Below are positions 19,682 to 30,989 of a DNA stretch of 31,324 bases, piece by piece. Numbering within the stretch: the stretch's first letter is position 1; every line of letters starts with the position of its first letter. Source of the stretch: a virus; IMG/VR virus record IMGVR_UViG_3300020469_000162, positions 1 to 31,324 of that record; one strand, written 5' to 3'. Made by a program: the position numbers and the translations under genes. The notes under the pieces were generated by a model, which searched no databases, was not told where the DNA came from, and saw nothing but the letters and a program-made list of their open reading frames with translations.

Positions 19682-20554
19682 ATGGCAAGAAAGATAACAA
19701 CAGGTGAAGTTGGTGGTGCATTCGGTGGAATTAACATTACGAATACTACTATTAGCGCAGCACCAGGTCTAGACATTACTATTGATCCTCAAGGATCTGG
19801 TAGAGTTAACATACAAGCAAATACGCATTTAGGGTTACAATCTGATTTAAGATTTGGTGACTCAGATGATACAAACTATGTTGCTTTTAAAGCACCTACA
19901 ACTATTGCAAGTGATGTTACATGGACTTTACCAGCAGCAGATGCAACAGTATCAGGATATGCTCTAGTATCAAACGGTAGTGGAGTGTTATCATGGCAAG
20001 CAGCAGGTGCAACACACACTGATGAAACAGCAGCAAGTGCAACATATTACCCTGTTATCACAACACAAACTTCAGGGTTTTTAACAGTTACAGACGTATC
20101 AACAACAAAATTAGCATTCCAGCCAAGTACAGGAAAAATGACACTAGGTGGTAACACAGCATCAACAAGTAAAACTACTGGAACACTAGTAGTAACAGGC
20201 GGTGTTGGAGTTTCAGGAGCAATGTATGTAGGTGGAGATATATATTCATATGCATCTTCAGACAAAAGACTAAAAGAAAACCTTGAAAAAATTGATGGCA
20301 GTTTAGAAAAAATTGCAAAGATTTCAGGATACGAATATAACTGGAACAGCATTGCACAAGAAATGCACCCAGAAAGAACAGAACGTGATTACGGAGTTGT
20401 TGCCCAAGAGGTACAAGAAGTTCTTCCATCAGCAGTAGTAGAAAGAGAAGATGGATATCTTGCTGTAAATTATGAAAGAATTATTCCACTGCTAATAGAA
20501 TCTATAAAAAGTTTAAAAGAAGAATTAGATATGATTAAACGAGGAGACGCATAA
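19682..20554 (+). CDS. Fibre protein with C-terminal S74 intramolecular chaperone domain
   Basis: 290 residues. The N-terminal two thirds is a fibre: ITIDPQGSGRVNIQANTHLG, then 'WTLPAADATVSGYALVSNG', then KTTGTLVVTGGVGVSGAMYV, the well-known run-up to the chaperone. Residues 193-290 are a Peptidase_S74 (endosialidase chaperone) domain: SDKRLKENL with Ser193 and Lys198 in the expected Ser/Lys spacing, YGVVAQEVQEVLPSAV, YLAVNYERIIPLLIESIKSL and a terminal helix. In this family the domain drives trimerisation and then cuts itself off before the serine, here between Ser192 and Ser193. AAGAGGA at 19668-19674 precedes the ATG. It is followed with a 1-nt overlap by the Cys-rich adhesin candidate, suggesting the two are made together. 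Confidence 0.88.
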   Translation: MARKITTGEVGGAFGGINITNTTISAAPGLDITIDPQGSGRVNIQANTHLGLQSDLRFGDSDDTNYVAFKAPTTIASDVTWTLPAADATVSGYALVSNGSGVLSWQAAGATHTDETAASATYYPVITTQTSGFLTVTDVSTTKLAFQPSTGKMTLGGNTASTSKTTGTLVVTGGVGVSGAMYVGGDIYSYASSDKRLKENLEKIDGSLEKIAKISGYEYNWNSIAQEMHPERTERDYGVVAQEVQEVLPSAVVEREDGYLAVNYERIIPLLIESIKSLKEELDMIKRGDA

Positions 20555-21381
20555 TGCCAGTACAATTATCAGACAAAGGTATAGTATATTCCAATAATCA
20601 ACATCAATGTAAAATTGCCGAAGGTTACGAATTTTATGTATATGACGGCGATTGGTGGACACCTTGTAATGGTGGAAGATGTTGTCAATGGTCTGTACCA
20701 GCAGGAACTACATCAATTAAATTTGAAATACTATCAGGTGGAGGCCCAGGTGGCTCATCAGGCGGTGACTATGATAACGGAATTGGTGGACAGGGCGGAA
20801 ACTACGCTGTAAAAACACTACAAAAATCAGTACACAATTTTAGCGATGGCACAAACTACACAATTTGTGCTGCTGGATCTTCAGCATGTAGTTGTTGTTG
20901 TAGATGTAACGTAAACAACCGTCATGGTTGTAGAAGTTACGTTAACGGTACAGGATTAAGTAATTTTTGTGTAACAGGCGGTATGGGCGGTCCTACAGTT
21001 TGGGATAAATCATCAAACTGTTACAACTGTCACATTGGTAACGTTCAGTGTAACAGAGGTTTATATAACAGTAGTTGGCAAGCAAATGCTTGTAACCAAG
21101 CAAGTTATGGCGCTGATATGACATTTAGAGGAACAGCAGGTTCAATGAATAGACAGTACAACTGTTGTGCTGATTACTTTTCAGTGCAGGGTGGCCCTTC
21201 AGGACCATTTGCAGCACCACACGGAGTAGGTGGCAAACACTGGTGTACAGGTAACTTGGCTTGTTGTTCATCACACGCAGCATTTCCAGGCGGTGGCGGA
21301 GCAGGTCACGGTATTGGTTCAAGTAGTGCTTGTTGGGGTTCATTCGGTGCAGGCGGATTAGTAAGAGTAACATACAGTTAA
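20554..21381 (+). CDS. Gly/Cys-rich protein, candidate receptor-binding adhesin
   Basis: 275 residues with about 50 Gly and 22 Cys, very unusual for a phage structural protein. After an N-terminal part (VYDGDWWTPCNGGRCCQWSV) and a beta segment TTSIKFEILSGG, glycine runs appear (GGGPGGSSGGDYDNGIGGQGG near residues 66-86, GGMGGP, GGGGAGHGIG near the end). Cysteines are dense at residues 112-118 (C-S-C-C-C-R-C) and in CC pairs (NCCAD, ACCSS). The C-terminus FGAGGLVRVTYS is the usual closing strand of 'glycine-rich' phage tail proteins. Glycine-rich loops recall the gp38-type adhesins of T-even phages, which contact the receptor, but I see this as analogy, not homology. It overlaps the S74 fibre by one base and precedes an assembly chaperone-like gene. 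The Cys residues may bind metal or form disulphides once outside the cell. Confidence 0.7.
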   Translation: MPVQLSDKGIVYSNNQHQCKIAEGYEFYVYDGDWWTPCNGGRCCQWSVPAGTTSIKFEILSGGGPGGSSGGDYDNGIGGQGGNYAVKTLQKSVHNFSDGTNYTICAAGSSACSCCCRCNVNNRHGCRSYVNGTGLSNFCVTGGMGGPTVWDKSSNCYNCHIGNVQCNRGLYNSSWQANACNQASYGADMTFRGTAGSMNRQYNCCADYFSVQGGPSGPFAAPHGVGGKHWCTGNLACCSSHAAFPGGGGAGHGIGSSSACWGSFGAGGLVRVTYS

Positions 21382-22195: not shown

Positions 22196-23128
22196 ATGAA
22201 AAAAGCATTCTTTATTAACGGTGGTGCAGGTCGCGTTCTTTGTGCGATTCCAGCACTAGAATATCATTTAAAAAATATAGATCCAACAGCACCTATTATT
22301 GTAGAAGGTTGGATTGATTTATATCTTACTAGCAAAATACTAGTAAACAACACCTTTCCTGCTAATGATCCTAATCTTTTTGACAAATTGAAAGATAGAG
22401 AAATTATTACACCTGAACCTTACAAACTTAATGCGTATTTTACTCAACGAGCCAATCTAGTTCAATCCTTTGACATGTTGATTAACTATGATTATCCACC
22501 TGAAACAGTTCCAGAAACAAAAGAATATAACGAACTCTTTGTAGGAAAAAAAGATATTGCAACAGGAGAAGAGCTAGTAGCAGAAGCAAAAAGACATTTC
22601 AAAAAAGATAAAGTTATAATATTTCAACCATTTGGATCTACTGCTACAATACATGGCGGTGTAATTGTTGATGAAAGCGGCAGGTCGTTTGAAGTAGATG
22701 ATATTATAGACTTACTTGAAGAATTGAATAAAGATTATGCTGTCATACTAATGAGCAGTATGAAAATACCAACTGATAAAAATCTTAATGTAATGTTTCC
22801 AGAAGAAGTAAGTTTATTACAATGGACTGCAATTATCAATGCTGCGGATTATTTCTTAGGTTGTGATTCAGTAGGACAACATGTTGTTCACGCTCTTAAA
22901 AAACCTGGCACAGTAGTTATAGGTAGTACATTTCCTGAAAACATTTCCTATCCGGAGAGCACTACACTAAAAATTATAGACAACGGAATAGGTGAAAGAA
23001 AATATTCTCCTTTAAGAGTCGCAATAGATATTAGGATTGATAGACAGAATGAAAACTTAATGAAACTGAGCTCAGACACTAAGAAAAAAATTGTAAAACA
23101 AATTAAAGATACTTTAGGAAAACAATAA
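22196..23128 (+). CDS. Glycosyltransferase family 9 (heptosyltransferase)-like protein
   Basis: 310 residues. The N-terminus FFINGGAGRVLCAIPALEYH has the glycine-rich acceptor-side loop and 'iPAl' of GT9 enzymes (heptosyltransferases WaaC/WaaF). FQPFGSTATIHGG near residues 140-155 sits where GT9 has its inter-domain sugar-nucleotide loop. LGCDSVGQHVVHALKKPG (about 221-238) followed by VVIGSTFPENISYP matches the GT9 'tDSg..HlA.alg.P.v.lfG.t.P' site, with Asp224 and His229 conserved. GT9 enzymes usually transfer L-glycero-D-manno-heptose from ADP-heptose, and ADP-heptose genes follow in this cassette. Donor and acceptor here are inferred. It is the first gene after the late promoter and overlaps the next ATG by one base. 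Confidence 0.75.
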   Translation: MKKAFFINGGAGRVLCAIPALEYHLKNIDPTAPIIVEGWIDLYLTSKILVNNTFPANDPNLFDKLKDREIITPEPYKLNAYFTQRANLVQSFDMLINYDYPPETVPETKEYNELFVGKKDIATGEELVAEAKRHFKKDKVIIFQPFGSTATIHGGVIVDESGRSFEVDDIIDLLEELNKDYAVILMSSMKIPTDKNLNVMFPEEVSLLQWTAIINAADYFLGCDSVGQHVVHALKKPGTVVIGSTFPENISYPESTTLKIIDNGIGERKYSPLRVAIDIRIDRQNENLMKLSSDTKKKIVKQIKDTLGKQ

Positions 23129-24954
23129 TGAGAAAAACAGGCTACATTGCAGGAATTGCTAGAGGGCACAATGCAGGTGTTTGTCTTTTAAAAGACGGCG
23201 AAATTGTATTTGCAATTGAAGAAGAAAGATTATCCCGTTACAAATACGACGGAGGACCTCTTGCAAGTATGATTAAAATTTTAGATTATACAGATAAGAT
23301 TGATTATCTTGCAATATCTCATACGCAAGACGCAGACGAACCTCTAAACGATTATGTCCGTCAAGATGTATATACTGCACTTGCTAGAAAATTAAGATTA
23401 ATTGAAGACCCTGAAACACAGGTTGTTAAATATCATGCTCAACATCACAGAAGTCATGCTGCACTAGCATTTTATAGATCAGGATTTGAAAAGGCAAGTG
23501 CTATAATTGTTGATGGAGCAGGAACATTTGTAGAACGACCAGATGGACAAACTATGTTTGAGGTTGAAAGTATATACGATTGCGCATATCCTGCAACATT
23601 TACAGAAATTTATAAGCATTTTGGAGGAAACGGGCCTTGGAGAACTGAGCACTATAACGCAGACGGTAGTGCTACAGAAGTAATGATAAACGATAAAGCA
23701 GGTATTGTTAAAGCATATGAAGCAGTAACTAGATTTTGCGGATTCGATTCAATTGAAGCCGGTAAAACAATGGGACTATTTCCATATGGTGAACCAAACA
23801 AAGCACCTAAGATTTACACTAATGCTTTTGGTGGCAACAAAGATTTATTTACTTGTACATATCCTAATGGAGCATGGGTAGATGAATCTGAATTCCCAGA
23901 GATTAGAGATAGAATATATGATCCGAGTGATATAATTCGATCTGCTAAAGATCCAGACAACCAAGATGAACAAGACAGAATTCAAGAACTGCTTAGAAAA
24001 TCTGACAGAGAAGATGTTACACTACTTCCATCACGCAGAAACATGGCATATAATGTTCAAGTAGAATCTCAACAACTAGTACTTGATTTAATATTAAAAT
24101 CAATTGAACGCACTGGTAATAAAAATATTGTTATCAGCGGCGGTTATGCTTTAAATTGTGTTGCTAATTATTTCTTTTTAAAACATTTACCAGAAGGTGT
24201 AAAAATATATGTAGAACCTGTTAGCAATGATGCAGGTACTGCAATGGGTGCAGCATTTTATCATTATTATCTTACATCTCAAGATAACAAATTAAGAACT
24301 AAAGATGAAAACTTATTTTTAGGACCAGTACAAAATATTACTGAAGATATAATTAGAGAAACTGCAAAGAAATACAATGGTAATGTAACAACAGATGTAG
24401 ATTATAAACAAGTTATAGATACTATTAGAAACAAAAATATTGTAGCACTATATCAAGAAAGAGGAGAAAGCGGTCCTCGTGCATTAGGTAATCGTTCTTT
24501 AATGTATGACCCAACAGATCCAAACGGCAAAGATTTTGTTAACTTGGTTAAGAAGCGTGAATATTTTAGACCTTTTGCTGCAACTGTATTACAAGATGAT
24601 GTGCATGAATGGTTTGATTTACGTGGAATGGAAGATTCGCCTAGCATGATGTATGCAGTCAATTGCCAACCTGGCGTAAAAGAAAAAATACCAGCAGTCA
24701 TACATGTAGACGATACATGTAGAATACAAACAGTTACTAAAGAACAAAATGAACATTGGTACAATTTGATTAAAGAATTTAAAAACCAAACAGGAGTACC
24801 TGCATTGTTTAATACTAGTTTTAATTTAGGCGGAGAGCCATTAGTTGAAACTATTGATGATGCTATGCGTACTCTTTATAATTCAGGAATAAATTATATC
24901 TATTTTCCTGCAACGAAAATGCTAGTAAATATAGAGCATAATGAAAGGCGGTAA
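23128..24954 (+). CDS. Carbamoyltransferase, NodU/CmcH family
   Basis: 608 residues, full length for the family. The N-terminal ASKHA-like half has IAGIARGHNAGVCLLKDGEI and FAIEEERLSRYKYDG, then His103-x-x-His106-His107-x-x-His110 (HAQHHRSH), the metal-binding His cluster. VDGAGTF and 'IEAGKTMGLFPYG' follow. The C-terminal half has ESGPRALGNRSLMYDP starting at residue 447, YFRPFAATVL and FNTSFNLGGEPLVETIDDA, all family hallmarks. These enzymes use carbamoyl phosphate and ATP to carbamoylate a hydroxyl of a sugar or secondary metabolite. Family members modify Nod factors, cephamycin, and a heptose in Pseudomonas LPS core. The start overlaps the upstream stop by one base. The substrate is not identifiable from sequence; the heptose pathway alongside makes a heptose a good candidate. 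Confidence 0.92.
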   Translation: MRKTGYIAGIARGHNAGVCLLKDGEIVFAIEEERLSRYKYDGGPLASMIKILDYTDKIDYLAISHTQDADEPLNDYVRQDVYTALARKLRLIEDPETQVVKYHAQHHRSHAALAFYRSGFEKASAIIVDGAGTFVERPDGQTMFEVESIYDCAYPATFTEIYKHFGGNGPWRTEHYNADGSATEVMINDKAGIVKAYEAVTRFCGFDSIEAGKTMGLFPYGEPNKAPKIYTNAFGGNKDLFTCTYPNGAWVDESEFPEIRDRIYDPSDIIRSAKDPDNQDEQDRIQELLRKSDREDVTLLPSRRNMAYNVQVESQQLVLDLILKSIERTGNKNIVISGGYALNCVANYFFLKHLPEGVKIYVEPVSNDAGTAMGAAFYHYYLTSQDNKLRTKDENLFLGPVQNITEDIIRETAKKYNGNVTTDVDYKQVIDTIRNKNIVALYQERGESGPRALGNRSLMYDPTDPNGKDFVNLVKKREYFRPFAATVLQDDVHEWFDLRGMEDSPSMMYAVNCQPGVKEKIPAVIHVDDTCRIQTVTKEQNEHWYNLIKEFKNQTGVPALFNTSFNLGGEPLVETIDDAMRTLYNSGINYIYFPATKMLVNIEHNERR

Positions 24955-24956
24955 CG

Positions 24957-25577
24957 ATGGATGTCGAAGGACAAATTTTTCAATTATTTCCAACACCTTT
25001 ATACACCTATAAATTAGAAAACCAAGCATATACAGATGTGCAAAACGAATTACAGCCTATAGTTGATAAACTATATAATGAAGGAACTTGGGGACAAAAT
25101 CCAAATTGGGGTTCATCTTCACAATATCTATCTAATCAAGGTGACTTTTTTGAGCATCTATTGCAATTAGAAAATATGAAAACAACCGGTGAAACTATTA
25201 TGCATCACTGTGTAAATTACATGGCAGCAATGAATGTCCAACCTGCCTACAAAGCAGCGATGACTTCTTCATGGTTAACTTTAAACAAGCCTGGACTTTC
25301 TTCGCATATTCATGATCATGGTAATGCCCATATTAGTGGAGTATATTGGTTTAAAACTAGTGGAGATGACGGAGATATTGTTTTTAGAAATACACTGAAA
25401 GCGTTAAAATGTAATCCTATTGGAAGTTCTATTGCACATGAAAATTCTTTTTCGCCTGAGCAAGGTAGACTAATTTTGTTTCCAGGATTTTTAGACCACA
25501 GTGTTAATGAAAACAAAACTAACGGAGATAGAATTAGTATGTCTTTTAATATCTTGTTAGAAACAGGCGCAGTATAA
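24957..25577 (+). CDS. 2-oxoglutarate/Fe(II)-dependent oxygenase-like protein
   Basis: 206 residues. It opens FQLFPTPLYTYKL, the typical start of the 2OG-FeII_Oxy family common in marine T4-like phages. The metal region is HIHDHGNAHISGVYWF (residues 117-132), with His119 and His121 at the family positions before 'SGvyY'. The distal ligand is His181 in FPGFLDHSV, and Arg192 in GDRISMSFN is placed to bind 2-oxoglutarate. The family hydroxylates proteins, sugars or small molecules; the substrate is unknown. AAAGG at 24944-24948 lies 8 nt from the ATG, 2 nt after the carbamoyltransferase stop. First of four such proteins in this operon. Confidence 0.85.
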   Translation: MDVEGQIFQLFPTPLYTYKLENQAYTDVQNELQPIVDKLYNEGTWGQNPNWGSSSQYLSNQGDFFEHLLQLENMKTTGETIMHHCVNYMAAMNVQPAYKAAMTSSWLTLNKPGLSSHIHDHGNAHISGVYWFKTSGDDGDIVFRNTLKALKCNPIGSSIAHENSFSPEQGRLILFPGFLDHSVNENKTNGDRISMSFNILLETGAV

Positions 25578-26314
25578 TGTTGCATATTTTTGGAGATAGT
25601 TTTTCAATCCCCCAGAGCCATATGAACGAAGTGTTTGGTCCTCATGGAACACCAGTAACATACATGCCTTTAGAAAAAACTTGGACTACGATTGTCAAAG
25701 AAAGCATACTTGGAGATAGCGAATATATAAATGATTCTGTGTTAGGATGCTCTAATGATTACATTTATTATAAACTGGCTGAAAGAGAATCTTCATTTAA
25801 GGAAGGGGATTTTGTCATAATACAACCGACTTCTATGCATAGAGAATGGTTCTTTGAAAATAAACCATACATGGCAATTCAACTAGCGACAACGATAACT
25901 CCAGGTGTTGATGTTACAGAAGAACAGTATCAAGCAATAGAAATGTATAAAAGACATTTATATTTCGAAAGACGAAATATTATACATTACAGCATGTTTC
26001 TTGATTCATTAGCACGTAAAGTTAAGATGTATGGAGAACATAGAATCCGTTGTCTAATTCTCCCTGGGTTTGACAATGTTCCAGGAGTAAAGGGTAACTT
26101 ATGTGAAACATCAGGATTAGAATTTAATAACGAAAAGACTGCTATAGCATATTACGATAAAACCGGTGATCTTAGATTTAATCATTTTTCAGAAGTTAAT
26201 CATAAGATTCTAGCAGATAAAATAATCGAATTCTTTAAGACTGGTAAAACTGTAGATCTTACAACCGGGTTTAAAACTGGTATATATACTAAGGAAACAT
26301 TAAAAACATGTTAA
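25577..26314 (+). CDS. SGNH/GDSL-hydrolase-like protein
   Basis: 245 residues. MLHIFGDSFSIPQSH carries block I of SGNH hydrolases with Ser8 as the nucleophile, and GCSNDYIYY (from residue 57) is at the block II/III position with the oxyanion Gly/Asn. RFNHFSEVNHKILADKI (from residue 200) corresponds to block V with His203 or His209. The usual Asp three residues before the catalytic His is not there (Arg200; Asp198 is nearest), so activity is uncertain. Family members are esterases or O-acetyl transferase partners acting on glycans, lipids or small esters. It overlaps the upstream stop by one base and the next gene by seven. A role in removing or adding acyl groups on the glycan made by this cassette is inference. 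Confidence 0.68.
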   Translation: MLHIFGDSFSIPQSHMNEVFGPHGTPVTYMPLEKTWTTIVKESILGDSEYINDSVLGCSNDYIYYKLAERESSFKEGDFVIIQPTSMHREWFFENKPYMAIQLATTITPGVDVTEEQYQAIEMYKRHLYFERRNIIHYSMFLDSLARKVKMYGEHRIRCLILPGFDNVPGVKGNLCETSGLEFNNEKTAIAYYDKTGDLRFNHFSEVNHKILADKIIEFFKTGKTVDLTTGFKTGIYTKETLKTC

Positions 26315-26922
26315 AAATTTCACTTGAAGGTTATCCGGTTGGTATAAAAGAATTAGAACCACAGGATCTTAAAAGTTTACAGGATTATTACCTACCGTTA
26401 ATTTTAGATGGAAGTAATACAGGAAGTTCTAATAATGCTAGTAAAATTTCTAAGAATCTATCTCAACGTTGGGACGATTCAGATTTTTTTAAAAAATGGA
26501 ATGATACATTACTACCATCACCTTATATACAAGATTATATTGATTCATATTTGTTTAAATTTCCTTATAGTGTAGACATAGAGACTTGGTATAACGTACA
26601 TGAGCAACACGATCATCAACAATTACATGATCATATTACAACTAACGTGCCAGCGTTTTCTTGTGTTGTAATTTTAAAACAGCCTAGTCCAGAAGCAGGA
26701 CAATTTGTTTTTAGGACACCTAACTTATCAAACCATTTAAAGTATTTAGAATTAGATCCTATGAATGATTATCCTAATGCTTTCTACCCTGAAATGAAAG
26801 AAGGGTTATTACTAATGTTTCCTTCTTGTTTAGAACACTATGTACATTTTAATCAAACATCTGAACCTAGAGTTGTGTTTTCATCAAACATTATATTAAA
26901 AAGGAAAGGAGATTTACTCTAA
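26308..26922 (+). CDS. 2-oxoglutarate/Fe(II)-dependent oxygenase-like protein
   Basis: 204 residues. Histidine-rich metal region HEQHDHQQLHDHITTN spans residues 98-113; His107 and His109 align with the ligands of the first oxygenase of the operon. FPSCLEHYVHFNQ gives His177 as distal ligand, and Arg188 in EPRVVFSSN is the probable 2-oxoglutarate contact. N-terminal 80 residues are helical and less conserved. It starts 7 nt inside the preceding gene, which suggests coupling. It is a diverged relative of the protein at 24957, not a recent duplicate. Substrate unknown. Confidence 0.78.
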   Translation: MLKISLEGYPVGIKELEPQDLKSLQDYYLPLILDGSNTGSSNNASKISKNLSQRWDDSDFFKKWNDTLLPSPYIQDYIDSYLFKFPYSVDIETWYNVHEQHDHQQLHDHITTNVPAFSCVVILKQPSPEAGQFVFRTPNLSNHLKYLELDPMNDYPNAFYPEMKEGLLLMFPSCLEHYVHFNQTSEPRVVFSSNIILKRKGDLL

Positions 26923-27464
26923 TGGATGATATTATTCCGTTTCCTATTACTGTAAGACCATTTAAGGAACACAATCAACTAAAACAGCAAGTACTAGATG
27001 CTATTCATGCACAAGAAAATGCAGAACATATGACTGCACCCGACAGTGATATTGTTAAATGTGATTGGAATACTGCAAGATATGATGGAGATAGAGAGTG
27101 GTTGAAACTAATAAATCCTTCTCTTTCTATGCACATTAATAAGTGGTGTCAAGAAATGGGATATAAAACATTTGGTATTACTGAAATTTGGTTTCAACAA
27201 TATGCAAAAGGCGGCAAGCACGCATGGCATACACACAGTAACAACTTTACAAATGTTTATTACGTAAACTTGCCAGAAGATGCACAAACAGAATGGATTA
27301 ATCCGTTAACTAAAGATACACATACATTTGACGTACACGAAGGAGATATAGTTACATTTCCTAGTTGGGTCATACATAGAGCTCCTGTTAATAATACAGA
27401 AGAAATAAAAACAATTATTTCATGGAACATGGATATATCTATAGAGGATGACCATCATGACTAA
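26922..27464 (+). CDS. 2-oxoglutarate/Fe(II)-dependent oxygenase-like protein
   Basis: 180 residues. Starts MDDIIPFPITVRPF. The core is HAWHTHSNNFTNVYYVNL (residues 100-117), with His103/His105 as ligands and the 'Fs.vyYv' strand after it. The distal ligand is His152 in FPSWVIHRAPVNN. At the usual Arg position the sequence is IKTIISWN, so a Lys (163) may take its place in binding the 2-oxoglutarate carboxylate, or activity may be altered. The C-terminus is acidic with a His/Asp tail (EDDHHD). The ATG overlaps the preceding stop by one base. Substrate unknown. Confidence 0.78.
   Translation: MDDIIPFPITVRPFKEHNQLKQQVLDAIHAQENAEHMTAPDSDIVKCDWNTARYDGDREWLKLINPSLSMHINKWCQEMGYKTFGITEIWFQQYAKGGKHAWHTHSNNFTNVYYVNLPEDAQTEWINPLTKDTHTFDVHEGDIVTFPSWVIHRAPVNNTEEIKTIISWNMDISIEDDHHD
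27444..27447 (+). promoter_or_regulatory. Ribosome binding site that favours the 27457 start
   Basis: GAGG directly abuts the ATG at 27448, leaving no spacing, but is 9 nt from the in-frame ATG at 27457. The later ATG is therefore preferred, giving MTKKLAYEVIDNF. Confidence 0.6.
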
Positions 27465-28005
27465 AAAATTAGCGTACGAAGTAATAGATAATTTTTTAGA
27501 TAAAGAATACTTTGATGCAATAAAAACTGCATTAACATCAGACGACATAAGTTGGTTTTATAGAGATAATTTAACATCAAATAATGATGAAAGCGGTATG
27601 TTTTATTTCACACATAATTTTTTTTACAACAACACTGTTTCTAGTCCTTTTTTTAATCTGCTCGAACCATTATTCACTAGATTAAACACTTCTTCGTTAC
27701 TACAAGTTAGGGCGAATTTGTCCATAGGTAAAAAGGACATATACGAATCTTCGTGGCATACTGATTTAGATGATGGAAATTCTAAAACAGCCATAATGTA
27801 TATGACAACATGTAATGCTAAAACCCTGCTAGATGTTGAAAAAGAAATAATTAATGTTGATTCTGTTGAAAATAGGATATTAATTTTTGATACTGATATT
27901 CGTCATAAAATGATAAGTGCAACAGATACCAAAAGAAGAATTATTATTAATTTAAATTATAAGAATAAAACTTCAGACCAAGATATTAAAGTTGCATGGA
28001 TATAA
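27457..28005 (+). CDS. Prolyl-4-hydroxylase-like 2OG/Fe(II) oxygenase
   Basis: 182 residues from the preferred ATG at 27457 (27448 is an alternative three codons upstream). The opening YEVIDNFLDKEYFDAIKTAL is typical of prolyl-4-hydroxylase-type folds. SSWHTDLDD gives the classic His101-x-Asp103 pair, and IRHKMISATDTKRRIIINLN gives distal His150 and Arg160/161. This is a different subfamily from the three preceding oxygenases, which use a His-x-His arrangement. It overlaps the preceding gene by 8 nt and ends one base before the GmhB-like ATG. Substrate unknown: a protein side chain or sugar are both possible. Confidence 0.78.
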   Translation: MTKKLAYEVIDNFLDKEYFDAIKTALTSDDISWFYRDNLTSNNDESGMFYFTHNFFYNNTVSSPFFNLLEPLFTRLNTSSLLQVRANLSIGKKDIYESSWHTDLDDGNSKTAIMYMTTCNAKTLLDVEKEIINVDSVENRILIFDTDIRHKMISATDTKRRIIINLNYKNKTSDQDIKVAWI

Positions 28006-28006
28006 A

Positions 28007-28636
28007 ATGATTAAAAACTCAATTACTGTAGGACTAGATAGAGACGGAACAATAAACGAAGATCTTGGAACTTATGTTACCCATCCTATGCAATTCAAAC
28101 CTATAGAAAATAGTATAGAAGCGGTAACACTTCTTAGAAAAAAAGGTTACAATATTGTTGTACTAACTAATCAAGCCGGAGTTAGTAAAGGTATAATGAC
28201 TACTGAAGAAGTTGCTGTTGTACATGATTATATGCTTAATTTGTTAGGAGAAGCAGGTTGTGATAGCATAGATGGAATTTACTATAGTCATACAAGCCAG
28301 AAGAACGATATGTTTGCTAAACCAAATATTGGTATGTTTAAAAAAGCAGAATCTGAATGCAACTTAAAATTTAAAGGCGGATTTTATGTTGGAGATAAAT
28401 TAACAGATTTAAAAGCAGCAGAAAAAATAGGAGCAACACCTATATTAGTTCGTACCGGTTATGGGGAAGAAACAGAAAAAAAGTTAAAGAAATTTACCTA
28501 CAAAAACCTTGCAAGAAAAGTTATGGTGTTTGATAACTTGTGGGCATTTGCTAGTTCTTTACCAGATCCTGAAATAGAAAATGCAGCATGTAAAGAAATT
28601 ACATCGTCTGCAGGTATAAAAGCATCTTTTGTTTAG
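28007..28636 (+). CDS. gmhB: HAD phosphatase, GmhB-like (heptose-1,7-bisphosphate 7-phosphatase)
   Basis: 209 residues from the ATG at 28007, one base after the previous stop; a TTG at 27992 is in frame but would overlap the upstream gene and lacks a ribosome binding site. HAD motif I is LDRDGTIN with Asp11/Asp13, motif II LTNQAGVSKG at 53-62, motif III Lys105 in AKPNIGMF, and motif IV YVGDKLTDLKAA with Asp130/Asp134. The TNQ.G..G and KP...M pattern is that of GmhB/HisB-N phosphatases. In the heptose pathway it removes the 7-phosphate before nucleotide activation. The zinc-binding Cys pairs of classic GmhB are missing from the loop before KPN. The C-terminal 30 residues extend beyond the usual end. 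Its stop overlaps by 4 nt the convergent hldD-like gene. Confidence 0.8.
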   Translation: MIKNSITVGLDRDGTINEDLGTYVTHPMQFKPIENSIEAVTLLRKKGYNIVVLTNQAGVSKGIMTTEEVAVVHDYMLNLLGEAGCDSIDGIYYSHTSQKNDMFAKPNIGMFKKAESECNLKFKGGFYVGDKLTDLKAAEKIGATPILVRTGYGEETEKKLKKFTYKNLARKVMVFDNLWAFASSLPDPEIENAACKEITSSAGIKASFV

Positions 28637-29445
28637 ACACCTTCAATATATTCTTTTACAGTTTTAAACTGTATATCAAAAATATTTAGTAACTTGGTTA
28701 TATCTGCACAGGTATATTCTTGATATTGCCCTTGTAATTCCTCCGGCATTGGAATATACTTTATATCTGCATTATATTTTTTTGCAATTATTTCTGCAAC
28801 TGTTTGGAAACTGGTTGCAGAGCCTGTACCAATATTGTACAAGCCAGACTCTTTAACATGCAGCATCATTTGCTCATGTATGTCACACACATCACCTACA
28901 AAGATAAAATCTCTTAGGTACTTGTCACTGTTTTCAAACAAAGTAATAACACTTTCTTCCTCTGCTTGTTTTGTAAACTTTGTTATAGGACTTGCCTGTG
29001 TGCCCTTGTGTTCTTCTCTAGGTCCGTATACATTAAAATATCTCATACCCTGTACACATACCTTATGTTTTTGTTGCCATATCCATCTATCAAATAGATA
29101 CTTGCTCCAAGCATAAGGACTCTGAGGTTGTTTAGGATCATCTTCTCCAAACTTTTCATATGGTCCATATACACTTGCACTAGATGCATATTGAAAATTT
29201 ACACCTTTAGAATTACATTCATTGAATATCCATTTAGAAAATTCATAGTTTTGTGACATAATCTTGTCAACATCTCTTTCGCTAGTACTAGATATTGCTC
29301 CTAGATGTATTACCCAATCATATCCGTCAACACAAGGCTTATGATTTTCATCATAATCATAGCCATGAACTTCGTGTTCTGTTTGTAAATGATCAATTAG
29401 ATGTTTTGCAATAAACCCTTTTTCTCCAGTAATTAATATTATCAT
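28633..29445 (-). CDS. hldD: ADP-L-glycero-D-manno-heptose 6-epimerase-like (HldD) SDR protein
   Basis: 270 residues (bacterial HldD is about 310). Rossmann NAD(P) site ITGEKGFIAKHL at residues 5-16, with Ala13 where a Gly is usual. HLGAISSTSERD (47-58) and RYFNVYGPREEHKGTQAS (135-152) are diagnostic of HldD rather than general sugar epimerases. Catalytic Tyr111-x3-Lys115 is in SPYAWSKY, and Lys147 in EHKG matches the second catalytic residue of the family. YLRDFIFVGDV and GLYNIGTGSATSFQTVAEII are the C-terminal substrate part. It converts ADP-D,D-heptose to the L,D form. The ATG overlaps the kinase stop (ATGA), and it ends the minus operon, overlapping the convergent gmhB-like gene. Confidence 0.86.
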   Translation of the reverse strand: MIILITGEKGFIAKHLIDHLQTEHEVHGYDYDENHKPCVDGYDWVIHLGAISSTSERDVDKIMSQNYEFSKWIFNECNSKGVNFQYASSASVYGPYEKFGEDDPKQPQSPYAWSKYLFDRWIWQQKHKVCVQGMRYFNVYGPREEHKGTQASPITKFTKQAEEESVITLFENSDKYLRDFIFVGDVCDIHEQMMLHVKESGLYNIGTGSATSFQTVAEIIAKKYNADIKYIPMPEELQGQYQEYTCADITKLLNIFDIQFKTVKEYIEGV

Positions 29446-30197
29446 ATTTGTTTTAGATCCTCTTCTGTAAGTACGTATACTCCGCTGTGTTGCACAGATA
29501 ATGCTGCGGCGTTATTAGCGTGCATAATTGACTGTTCTATGTTGTTGCAGTTTAAATATGAATATGCAAGCACAGATAAAAATGTATCTCCAGCACCGCA
29601 TACATCGTGAACTTCAACTACAGGTGCATTATAAGTATTACCTTTGTATGTAGCACCTTGTTTACCTTTTGTTACTATTAAATCGCTACAAAAGGTTTTT
29701 GCACGATTATATTCAAGATCGTTTATTTTAAGTATGCAGCCTTCAAATTTATCAAGATAAAGTTTTTTAGTATCAACAAATACAGGCCCTTTAAATTTAC
29801 TACGTAGACTTATAATTAAATCTTCAGTTACAAATCCTTTGTTATAGTCACTTATTACTATAGCATCATAGTCTAAATTATGAAATTCAACGTTGCAAGA
29901 TTTGACTTTGTCTTCTTTGTCAACTCTTATTAAATGCTGTCCTGATCTGTAATCAATATATCTTGATTTAGTTATTTGTTCTTTGTTTGTAACAAACTCT
30001 ACATCGCACCCAAATGCTAATAAGTTTTCATTAACATTAGCAGCCATGCCAGGATTTATTTTTGTATTTTTATATTGAAATACAGGAACGGGTGCTTCGG
30101 GACTTATACGATCAGTACTACCATAATGGTATTCGTCAGTACAACTATCCCCGATTAATAATATCTTGTATTTTTTTTGTTGTTGAATAACCATCAT
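29442..30197 (-). CDS. HldE-type heptose-7-phosphate kinase (PfkB family), stand-alone
   Basis: 251 residues; the kinase part of bacterial HldE is about 310, so this is a compact form. IGDSCTDEYHYGSTDRISPE near residues 15-34, directly followed by APVPVF, is the HldE kinase signature. PGMAANVNENLLAFG is the ribokinase-fold sugar site, RSGQHLIRVDKED matches the HldE 'QLLRlD.E' segment, and VISDYNKG is also shared. VCGAGDTF with catalytic Asp204 is PfkB signature 2. It would phosphorylate heptose-7-phosphate at C1. Its start lies 53 nt inside the upstream cupin-nucleotidyltransferase gene in another frame, with GAGA a few bases upstream. In E. coli this kinase and the nucleotidyltransferase are one protein; here they are separate and in reversed order. 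Confidence 0.86.
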   Translation of the reverse strand: MMVIQQQKKYKILLIGDSCTDEYHYGSTDRISPEAPVPVFQYKNTKINPGMAANVNENLLAFGCDVEFVTNKEQITKSRYIDYRSGQHLIRVDKEDKVKSCNVEFHNLDYDAIVISDYNKGFVTEDLIISLRSKFKGPVFVDTKKLYLDKFEGCILKINDLEYNRAKTFCSDLIVTKGKQGATYKGNTYNAPVVEVHDVCGAGDTFLSVLAYSYLNCNNIEQSIMHANNAAALSVQHSGVYVLTEEDLKQI

Positions 30198-30924
30198 TTA
30201 TCTCATAAAATTCGATTGCGTTACAATGTTCTGCACCTACAATTCTCTTATCTTTGTAATCACTGCCTTTTACCATTATATCAGGATTATATTCTTTTAT
30301 AATATCTACTAGTTCTTGTTCTGAATCAAAATAAGAAATATCATCAACTGCTTTTAAATTAGACAGTAAGTTTAGTCTTTCATCTAAAGAATTAATAGGT
30401 CTATCCGAACCTTTTAATTGTTTAATTCTATCATCACTATCTATAGCAACTAACAAATGATCTCCTAATGATTTTGCATAGTTTAATAATTCAATATGTC
30501 CTTTATGAATAATATCAAAACTACCATTTACAATAATTTTTTTGCCTGACTGCTGACTGCTACCTGGAAAAACTCTGTAGTTGTCTTCAACACTGTCGGC
30601 TGTGCTTACTTCAAATATTTCACTCATTTCTTCAAGTGCTTCTAGTTGATGTGGCTGTAAAGGAGGATTGTGCCACTTGTCGCCTGCTACTAATTCTTTT
30701 GTATGTACCGTTGCATCTTTAGTATCAATCCATTTAAGCAAAAATTTACCCGAATTTACAAACCATGTTTCTTCTTTTTCTTTATGAAAATGCATGCTAA
30801 ATTTAGCACCTACTTTTTCAAATACCATAATCTTTCCACAGTACTTTTCATTAGTGGCCCATATTAATTCATAGCCCCAACCTTTTTTAATTTTTCCTTC
30901 TAAACGTGTATGCATTTTATCCAT
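30145..30924 (-). CDS. Cupin fused to HldE-type nucleotidyltransferase
   Basis: 259 residues. Residues 10-120 are a cupin: GWGYELIWATNEKYCGK, metal ligands His45, His47 and Glu51 in MHFHKEKEETWFV, and His92 in NPPLQPHQLEAL; this looks like the cupin domain of phosphomannose-isomerase-like proteins. After a Ser/Gln linker (GSSQQSGKK), residues 129-259 are a cytidylyltransferase-like domain with VNGSFDIIHKGHIELL (HxGH at 140-143), KGSDYKDKRIVGAE and a terminal STTKKI. This matches the C-terminal domain of HldE, which makes ADP-D,D-heptose from heptose-1-phosphate and ATP. The fusion to a cupin is unusual; the cupin may act on a sugar phosphate or bind the product. First gene of the minus operon, with a late promoter box 17 nt upstream. 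Confidence 0.84.
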   Translation of the reverse strand: MDKMHTRLEGKIKKGWGYELIWATNEKYCGKIMVFEKVGAKFSMHFHKEKEETWFVNSGKFLLKWIDTKDATVHTKELVAGDKWHNPPLQPHQLEALEEMSEIFEVSTADSVEDNYRVFPGSSQQSGKKIIVNGSFDIIHKGHIELLNYAKSLGDHLLVAIDSDDRIKQLKGSDRPINSLDERLNLLSNLKAVDDISYFDSEQELVDIIKEYNPDIMVKGSDYKDKRIVGAEHCNAIEFYEINDGYSTTKKIQDIINRG

Positions 30925-30940
30925 TATATGTGTACTTTAT

Positions 30941-30947
30941 TATTTAT
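30941..30947 (-). promoter_or_regulatory. T4-type late promoter box ATAAATA, minus strand
   Basis: Read on the minus strand the sequence is GATAAATAATAA. The box ends 17 nt before the ATG at 30924, so the leader would be only about 11 nt and without a strong ribosome binding site. It faces away from the box at 30990 and would drive the three heptose genes to 28633. Confidence 0.65.
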
Positions 30948-30989
30948 CTTGTTCTTGTAACCCACAAAAAATAATAATGACGCATATGG

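Follow-up and report, generated by a model that had tools for sequence, protein, structure and literature searches.

What a phage would do with ADP-heptose, and how it would carry out the first step of the pathway without GmhA, are the questions raised by a gene cassette of a marine bacteriophage, the IMG/VR virus record IMGVR_UViG_3300020469_000162. This record, a fragment of 31.3 kb, is called the window here, and positions are numbered on the whole of it (Table 1). The window encodes relatives of four enzymes of the classical pathway and no GmhA. We suggest that the isomerization of sedoheptulose-7-phosphate is probably the role of a cupin domain fused to the adenylyltransferase, a prediction that comes from the displacement of GmhA by this cupin in cellular loci.

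Relatives of four ADP-heptose enzymes

The initial annotation had described a near-complete pathway, with a GmhB-like phosphatase, an HldE-type kinase, an HldE-type nucleotidyltransferase and an HldD-type epimerase side by side. The four open reading frames (ORFs) exist (27992/28007-28636 on the plus strand; 28633-29445, 29442-30197 and 30145-30924 on the minus strand), every motif quoted for them is present, and profile searches against the GmhB, HldE-N, HldE-C and HldD families placed each one best in the family claimed. Among NCBIfam models, the phosphatase has its best match in PRK08942 with 140.7 bits (57.5 for HisB, the next non-heptose model, generic HAD models aside), the kinase in TIGR02198 with 150.5 bits (43 for the next non-heptose enzyme), the adenylyltransferase domain in TIGR02199 with 124 bits (56 for TIGR01518), and the epimerase in TIGR02197 with 244 bits (61 for the next enzyme).

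The kinase, assigned to a separate phage family (phrog_8133), has HldA (4e84) as its best solved relative and retains the RISPEAPVPV, SDYxKG and GAGDT motifs. The HldD-type protein matches the solved structure 1eq2 with an E-value of 2e-47, and in this alignment both the SDR motif YxxxK and the HKG lysine corresponding to E. coli residue 178 are retained. In the HldE-C-type domain (residues 123-259, phrog_7878) the HxGH motif is present; its solved relatives have cytidylyltransferase-type folds, and the heptose model is preferred over those of cytidylyltransferases. The phosphatase contains the HAD motif DxDGT and has GmhB as its closest relation (solved relatives 4pnh, 2gmw and 3l8h), with no cysteine in SHTSQKNDMFAKP, the region of the zinc-binding Cys/His loop of E. 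coli GmhB. Judging from ratios of nonsynonymous to synonymous substitution (dN/dS) of 0.07-0.25 against relatives, with 0.08-0.14 for the kinase, all the cassette genes are under purifying selection. These sequence features make it very likely that the four classical steps are encoded.

Two features weigh against this reading. All four enzymes score under the curated cut-offs of their models (345 bits for TIGR02198, 181.5 for TIGR02199, 274.6 for TIGR02197 and 178 for the GmhB model), which is why we regard them as divergent members of these families, and the kinase is about 50 residues short, mostly in the lid region.

A cupin and the first step

Neither SIS_2 (PF13580) nor GmhA was detected in the window, in 33 records of related phages or, by local searches with hidden Markov models, in the viral loci described below. 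Seven of the related records are complete genomes (P-SSM2, S-CAM1, S-SSM7, P-TIM68, S-SM2, Sf-FS3 and S-T4), and the absence of SIS_2 from the window and all 33 records argues against a GmhA hidden elsewhere. The same complete genomes carry a protein annotated as 'phosphoheptose isomerase' (T4-GC 306), which we rejected as the missing GmhA, since it is a small HAD-type protein without a SIS domain. It has about 110 residues with DxDGT, T/SARG, GKP and DD motifs, its Pfam matches are weak, all of HAD type and none to SIS, and the solved structure closest to it (9iqw, E-value 1.1e-10) is that of a capsule biosynthesis protein. In the window, its place is occupied by the full-length GmhB. The gene gmhA has been listed among the well-characterised auxiliary metabolic genes of phages (PMC9238414); calls of gmhA in virus surveys that rest on the T4-GC 306 family are probably wrong, and this result would correct the auxiliary metabolic gene annotation 'phosphoheptose isomerase'.

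The nucleotidyltransferase ORF is a fusion, in which an N-terminal cupin domain of about 120 residues (residues 1-122, phrog_7851), overlooked in the initial annotation, precedes the nucleotidyltransferase. In the isolated cyanophages, the cupin and the nucleotidyltransferase are encoded separately within the same cluster (T4-GC 307 and 304, respectively). The claim that only GmhA is missing holds in that no GmhA was found; for the first step, however, there is a strong candidate in the cupin, and instead of near-complete the pathway is better described as probably complete, with the cupin in place of GmhA.

The HxHxxK motif of the cupin (H45, H47) and H92 are invariant, and E52 is nearly so. 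With the cupin profile (A1), the top match among solved structures is the D-lyxose ketol-isomerase 2y0o (E-value 4e-6), closely followed by further sugar isomerases and oxidative cupins. Weak Pfam matches to Lyx_isomer and MannoseP_isomer were found in 25 and 17 of 27 members, respectively. Fold searches with the predicted structure (pLDDT 95.7) gave Z 15.9 for the cupin domain of CapF, 14.7 for archaeal phosphomannose isomerase and 13.8 for D-lyxose isomerase. D-lyxose isomerase (2y0o/7nzo) and archaeal phosphomannose isomerase (7zvm/7zvy) share with the phage cupin the fold and the His/Lys/Glu/His pattern, although identity in the fold alignments is 17-25% and the phage protein has WGxE, YCGK, E-S-T and D-x-x-R blocks of its own. 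Cupin sugar isomerases convert ketoses into manno- or lyxo-type aldoses, and the conversion of sedoheptulose-7-phosphate to D-glycero-D-manno-heptose-7-phosphate involves the same ketose-to-manno-aldose chemistry as that of fructose-6-phosphate to mannose-6-phosphate. A 'cysteine dioxygenase' label on the cupin is unsupported by the profile and fold searches among the families listed there. One contig carries, besides an intact cupin-nucleotidyltransferase fusion, another cupin copy (L017:400-750) that is degenerate and lacks the HxH metal motif.

In 80 viral loci found through the cupin, the nucleotidyltransferase is present in 76, the kinase and the epimerase in 74 each, and all three in 71. 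Loci were also fetched through the gene of a linked GT9-fold glycosyltransferase, in order to remove ascertainment through the cupin; all 27 phage loci with a kinase obtained in this way have the cupin and none has GmhA.

By scanning genome contigs with the cupin alignment, we found loci composed of cupin, HldD, kinase, GmhB and nucleotidyltransferase genes in Nomurabacteria, Woesearchaeota and Nanoarchaeota; a GT9-like gene is close to several of these loci. Enzymes of these cellular cupin loci (two were scored) reach the curated cut-offs of TIGR02198, TIGR02199 and TIGR02197. One locus (L159) contains a cupin-HldD fusion, and a Bdellovibrionales contig (L177) a kinase-cupin fusion. For the DISPLACEMENT of GmhA in cells, Nanoarchaeota-type and Patescibacteria genomes were sampled regardless of the cupin (except G051, G043 and G036 in the first set and G049 in the second, which came from the cupin scan), and loci with an HldE-N kinase were counted. 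The kinase is encoded by 34 of the 148 genomes from the phylum of L159, with GmhA at 16 of the kinase loci and the cupin at 7; in the phylum of L156, it is present in 15 of 287 genomes, with GmhA at 9 loci and the cupin at 5. The two partners never occur together: over the combined 49 kinase loci there are 25 with GmhA, 12 with the cupin and none with both (hypergeometric probability 2.9e-5, uncorrected for relatedness). Fusions of the kinase with GmhA (G134, G153, L222) have counterparts in fusions with the cupin, in either order (G087, G098, G204, L218, L219, L221), and well-supported branches of a kinase tree of 43 loci require at least 4 changes of partner between cupin and GmhA. Mutual exclusion, mirror-image fusions and repeated swaps are the pattern expected if the cupin does the job of GmhA. 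Since it also accompanies the kinase and has a D-lyxose ketol-isomerase as best profile match, the apparently missing first step is probably present.

Several observations do not favor this assignment. The matches of the cupin model to CapF, quercetinase and oxalate decarboxylase equal or exceed those to the isomerases; the fold is no closer to sugar isomerases (Z 13.6-14.7) than to other cupins, many of which match, and structural Z-scores alone do not separate the two. The cellular genomes are mostly incomplete metagenome-assembled genomes, an unlinked SIS protein occurs in some genomes with the cupin (G054, G154, G051), and cupin relatives are also found in loci without heptose genes. In two deltaproteobacterial contigs (L115, L120), such a relative adjoins what by eye is a GDP-mannose 4,6-dehydratase-like gene, and hence the substrate need not be heptose. 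The same arrangement fits a family of sugar isomerases and suggests that other members may be phosphomannose isomerases.

It could be that the host GmhA supplies heptose-7-phosphate and the cupin acts later, for example epimerizing or tailoring the ADP-sugar in the manner of the cupin domain of CapF. In favor of this, the best structural match is to CapF, which combines an SDR with a cupin and works on a nucleotide sugar, and the cupin also occurs fused to HldD. The closest isolates of the window phage, at about 50% protein identity, infect Prochlorococcus and Synechococcus. By hand count, a SIS protein of the size of GmhA is encoded in about 28 of 151 Cyanobiaceae genomes, and some hosts of related phages may therefore provide GmhA. 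However, about four fifths of this sample lack such a protein, which means that in most hosts of this kind a phage could not depend on it. If the cupin acted at a later step, it should be found alongside GmhA, which is not what the exclusion at the kinase locus, the repeated swaps and the mirror-image kinase fusions indicate. We consider a later-acting cupin unlikely.

Even less probable is that heptose-family enzymes were repurposed for a related activated sugar, made for example from a mannose-type precursor. This would agree with the scores under the curated cut-offs, with the two cupin relatives beside a GDP-mannose-dehydratase-like gene, and with the transketolase-like and other sugar genes added in some phage clusters. 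On the other hand, each of the four enzymes independently prefers its heptose family by a wide margin, the linked GT9 protein has a heptosyltransferase fold, and cellular loci with the same cupin hold enzymes above the heptose cut-offs.

On balance, leaving the acceptor aside, we favor a complete ADP-heptose pathway with the cupin as the predicted isomerase, somewhat less firmly than the role of the cupin itself. The cupin domain would convert sedoheptulose-7-phosphate to D-glycero-D-manno-heptose-7-phosphate, the HldE-N-type kinase would phosphorylate position 1, the GmhB-type phosphatase would take off the 7-phosphate, the HldE-C domain fused to the cupin would carry out the adenylylation, and the HldD-type enzyme the 6-epimerization. 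The GT9-fold enzyme would then transfer the heptose onto an acceptor, and a carbamoyltransferase may modify it.

The GT9-fold protein and the acceptor

Alone, the GT9 protein of the window (T4-GC 302) scores 15.7 bits against PF01075, under the cut-off of 22. Among its relatives, a match to this model was found in 18 of 19 (E-values up to 0.1, the best 4.7e-6), and one to heptosyltransferase III in 4 of 5. A profile search against sequences of solved structures gave nothing significant. The predicted structure (pLDDT 86) matches the heptosyltransferases WaaF and WaaC and the protein heptosyltransferase TibC, all GT9 enzymes, over the whole length of the fold at Z 19-22, versus 11.6 for the next unrelated fold, with differences in that identities are 10-17% and the alignment to TibC starts only after residue 93. 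The protein is probably a heptosyltransferase. Against it speaks an invariant Arg13 in the phage family, at the position of the N-terminal Asp13, the proposed catalytic residue of WaaC. In addition, among 22 GT9 loci whose downstream flanks are long, 6 have no kinase within reach.

The GT9 gene occurs with the carbamoyltransferase gene in 77 of 80 viral loci, in many of them with oxygenase and heptose genes downstream, and the longer GT9 contigs also carry very long, fibre-sized ORFs. The proposal that ADP-heptose is made near fibre genes is supported by the family scores, the retained catalytic residues, the conservation of the cassette, the purifying selection and the linked gene with a heptosyltransferase fold. 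It is likely that the cassette makes heptose, perhaps carbamoylated, for the virion or the host surface. As for its position, the initial annotation had placed the cassette between fibre genes: these are found upstream of both the GT9 gene and the heptose cassette, but downstream there is only a truncated ORF (31023 on), whose one match, a weak one, is to a PHROG of unknown function.

In the Vibrio phage D505 (L182:7989-8726), a GT9 relative lies between giant structural genes with no heptose genes and no other annotated glycan genes nearby. Relatives of this type were matched in 31 Vibrio phage records; the hosts of these phages can be presumed to synthesize ADP-heptose on their own. We prefer the virion as acceptor because the GT9 gene follows fibre genes and that of D505 lies among structural genes; a tail-fibre protein would be the most likely target and a host surface glycan a less likely one, with the chances of a putative heptosyl transfer to the virion falling a little short of even.

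The same pathway could instead serve to change the host surface, excluding other phages or masking a receptor, an alternative that competes with the acceptor part only. LPS-type (lipopolysaccharide) genes are known in pelagimyophages, for whose glycosyltransferases this is the published reading (PMC7029224), and the cassettes of P-TIM68, S-SM2 and S-T4 sit among other glycosyltransferases. It is set against the position of the GT9 gene after giant fibre genes in the window and its relatives, the D505 arrangement, and the lack of any recognised flippase, polymerase or ligase near the window cassette; we regard host-surface use as possible, with roughly one chance in three.

Taken as a whole, the scenario remains tentative that a novel cupin-fold sedoheptulose-7-phosphate isomerase took the place of GmhA on several occasions in archaea and bacteria with small genomes, and that marine phages use it in a self-sufficient pathway, together with a heptosyltransferase, decorating their own tail fibres with heptose or carbamoyl-heptose. 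If true, it would give a function to a widespread cupin family and fill a hole of the ADP-heptose pathway in those archaea and bacteria. The initial annotation had pointed to heptose-free LPS in marine Synechococcus as a puzzle, and the absence of heptose is indeed reported for strains WH8102 and CC9311 (PMC4515613); glycosylation of the virion rather than of LPS could then be a reason for a phage heptose pathway in such hosts. The cassette had also been considered notable for the synthesis of ADP-heptose by a phage. Heptose genes in cyanophages were already published (PMC7378029), but among the open-access papers searched we found none on a cupin replacing GmhA or on DPANN and ADP-heptose, which is no proof of their absence elsewhere.

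Related clusters, neighbouring genes and promoter-like boxes

With the classical pathway, the phage cassette has in common the kinase, phosphatase, adenylyltransferase and epimerase families and their clustering. It differs in having a cupin instead of GmhA with its SIS fold, a kinase and a nucleotidyltransferase on separate ORFs, the latter fused to the cupin, a shortened kinase and epimerase, and a phosphatase without the zinc-loop cysteines. The cyanophage cluster T4-GC 302-308 (P-SSM2, S-CAM1, S-SSM7, Sf-FS3), whose genes adjoin fibre or neck genes, shares with the window the GT9, carbamoyltransferase, nucleotidyltransferase, kinase, phosphatase, cupin and HldD-like genes; what sets the window apart is a GmhB of full length in place of the HAD-type protein of 110 residues, and the cupin-nucleotidyltransferase fusion.

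Table 1. Positions of the heptose cassette, linked genes and T4-GC 306 examples.
Feature	Position	Strand	Remark
GT9-fold glycosyltransferase, T4-GC 302	22196..23128	+	Probable heptosyltransferase; 'hypothetical' in isolates
NodU/Nol-like carbamoyltransferase	23128..24954	+	PF16861 and PF02543
Accessory block	24957..28005	+	Gene order conserved among relatives
2-oxoglutarate (2OG)-Fe(II) oxygenase-like genes	24957-25577, 26308-26922, 26922-27464, 27448-28005	+	Accessory block
SGNH-like gene	25577-26314	+	Assigned by motif only
GmhB-type heptose-bisphosphate phosphatase	28007..28636	+	Putative step 3; ATG at 28007 preferred over TTG at 27992
HldD-type ADP-heptose 6-epimerase	28633..29445	-	Putative step 5; YxxxK and HKG retained
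HldE-N-type PfkB heptose-7-phosphate kinase	29442..30197	-	Putative step 2; shortened at lid
HldE-C-type adenylyltransferase domain	30145..30558	-	Putative step 4; same ORF as cupin; HKGH and STTKKI motifs
Cupin domain, residues 1-122 of the fusion	30559..30924	-	Proposed sedoheptulose-7-phosphate isomerase, step 1
GATAAATA box	30941..30948	-	Possible late promoter of the cupin-nucleotidyltransferase/kinase/HldD operon
T4-GC 306 examples	L001:9740-10084, L002:9725-10048, L003:10691-11026 and equivalents		Labelled 'phosphoheptose isomerase'

If the GmhB-type ORF is read from 27992, its matches to relatives start only at residue 6-9. The claim that all the cassette genes carry late promoters could not be maintained: the T4 late-promoter consensus TATAAATA is found nowhere in the window. 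The box GATAAATA has three copies there (11530; 30941 on the minus strand; 30989), all in the correct orientation and some tens of bases ahead of the start of an ORF, a copy count not above chance. Within the cassette it precedes the minus-strand operon only, with none ahead of the GmhB gene. It is possibly a late promoter of this phage.

The protein encoded at 27448-28005 falls in PHROG family 274, named DNA endonuclease V. It has no Pfam match and reads as a 2OG-Fe(II) oxygenase (HTD...H...R), and the family name looks wrong for it. Outside the cassette, a glycine-rich protein of 275 residues (20554-21381), unusually rich in cysteine, is encoded between Peptidase_S74-containing and tail assembly chaperone-type proteins.

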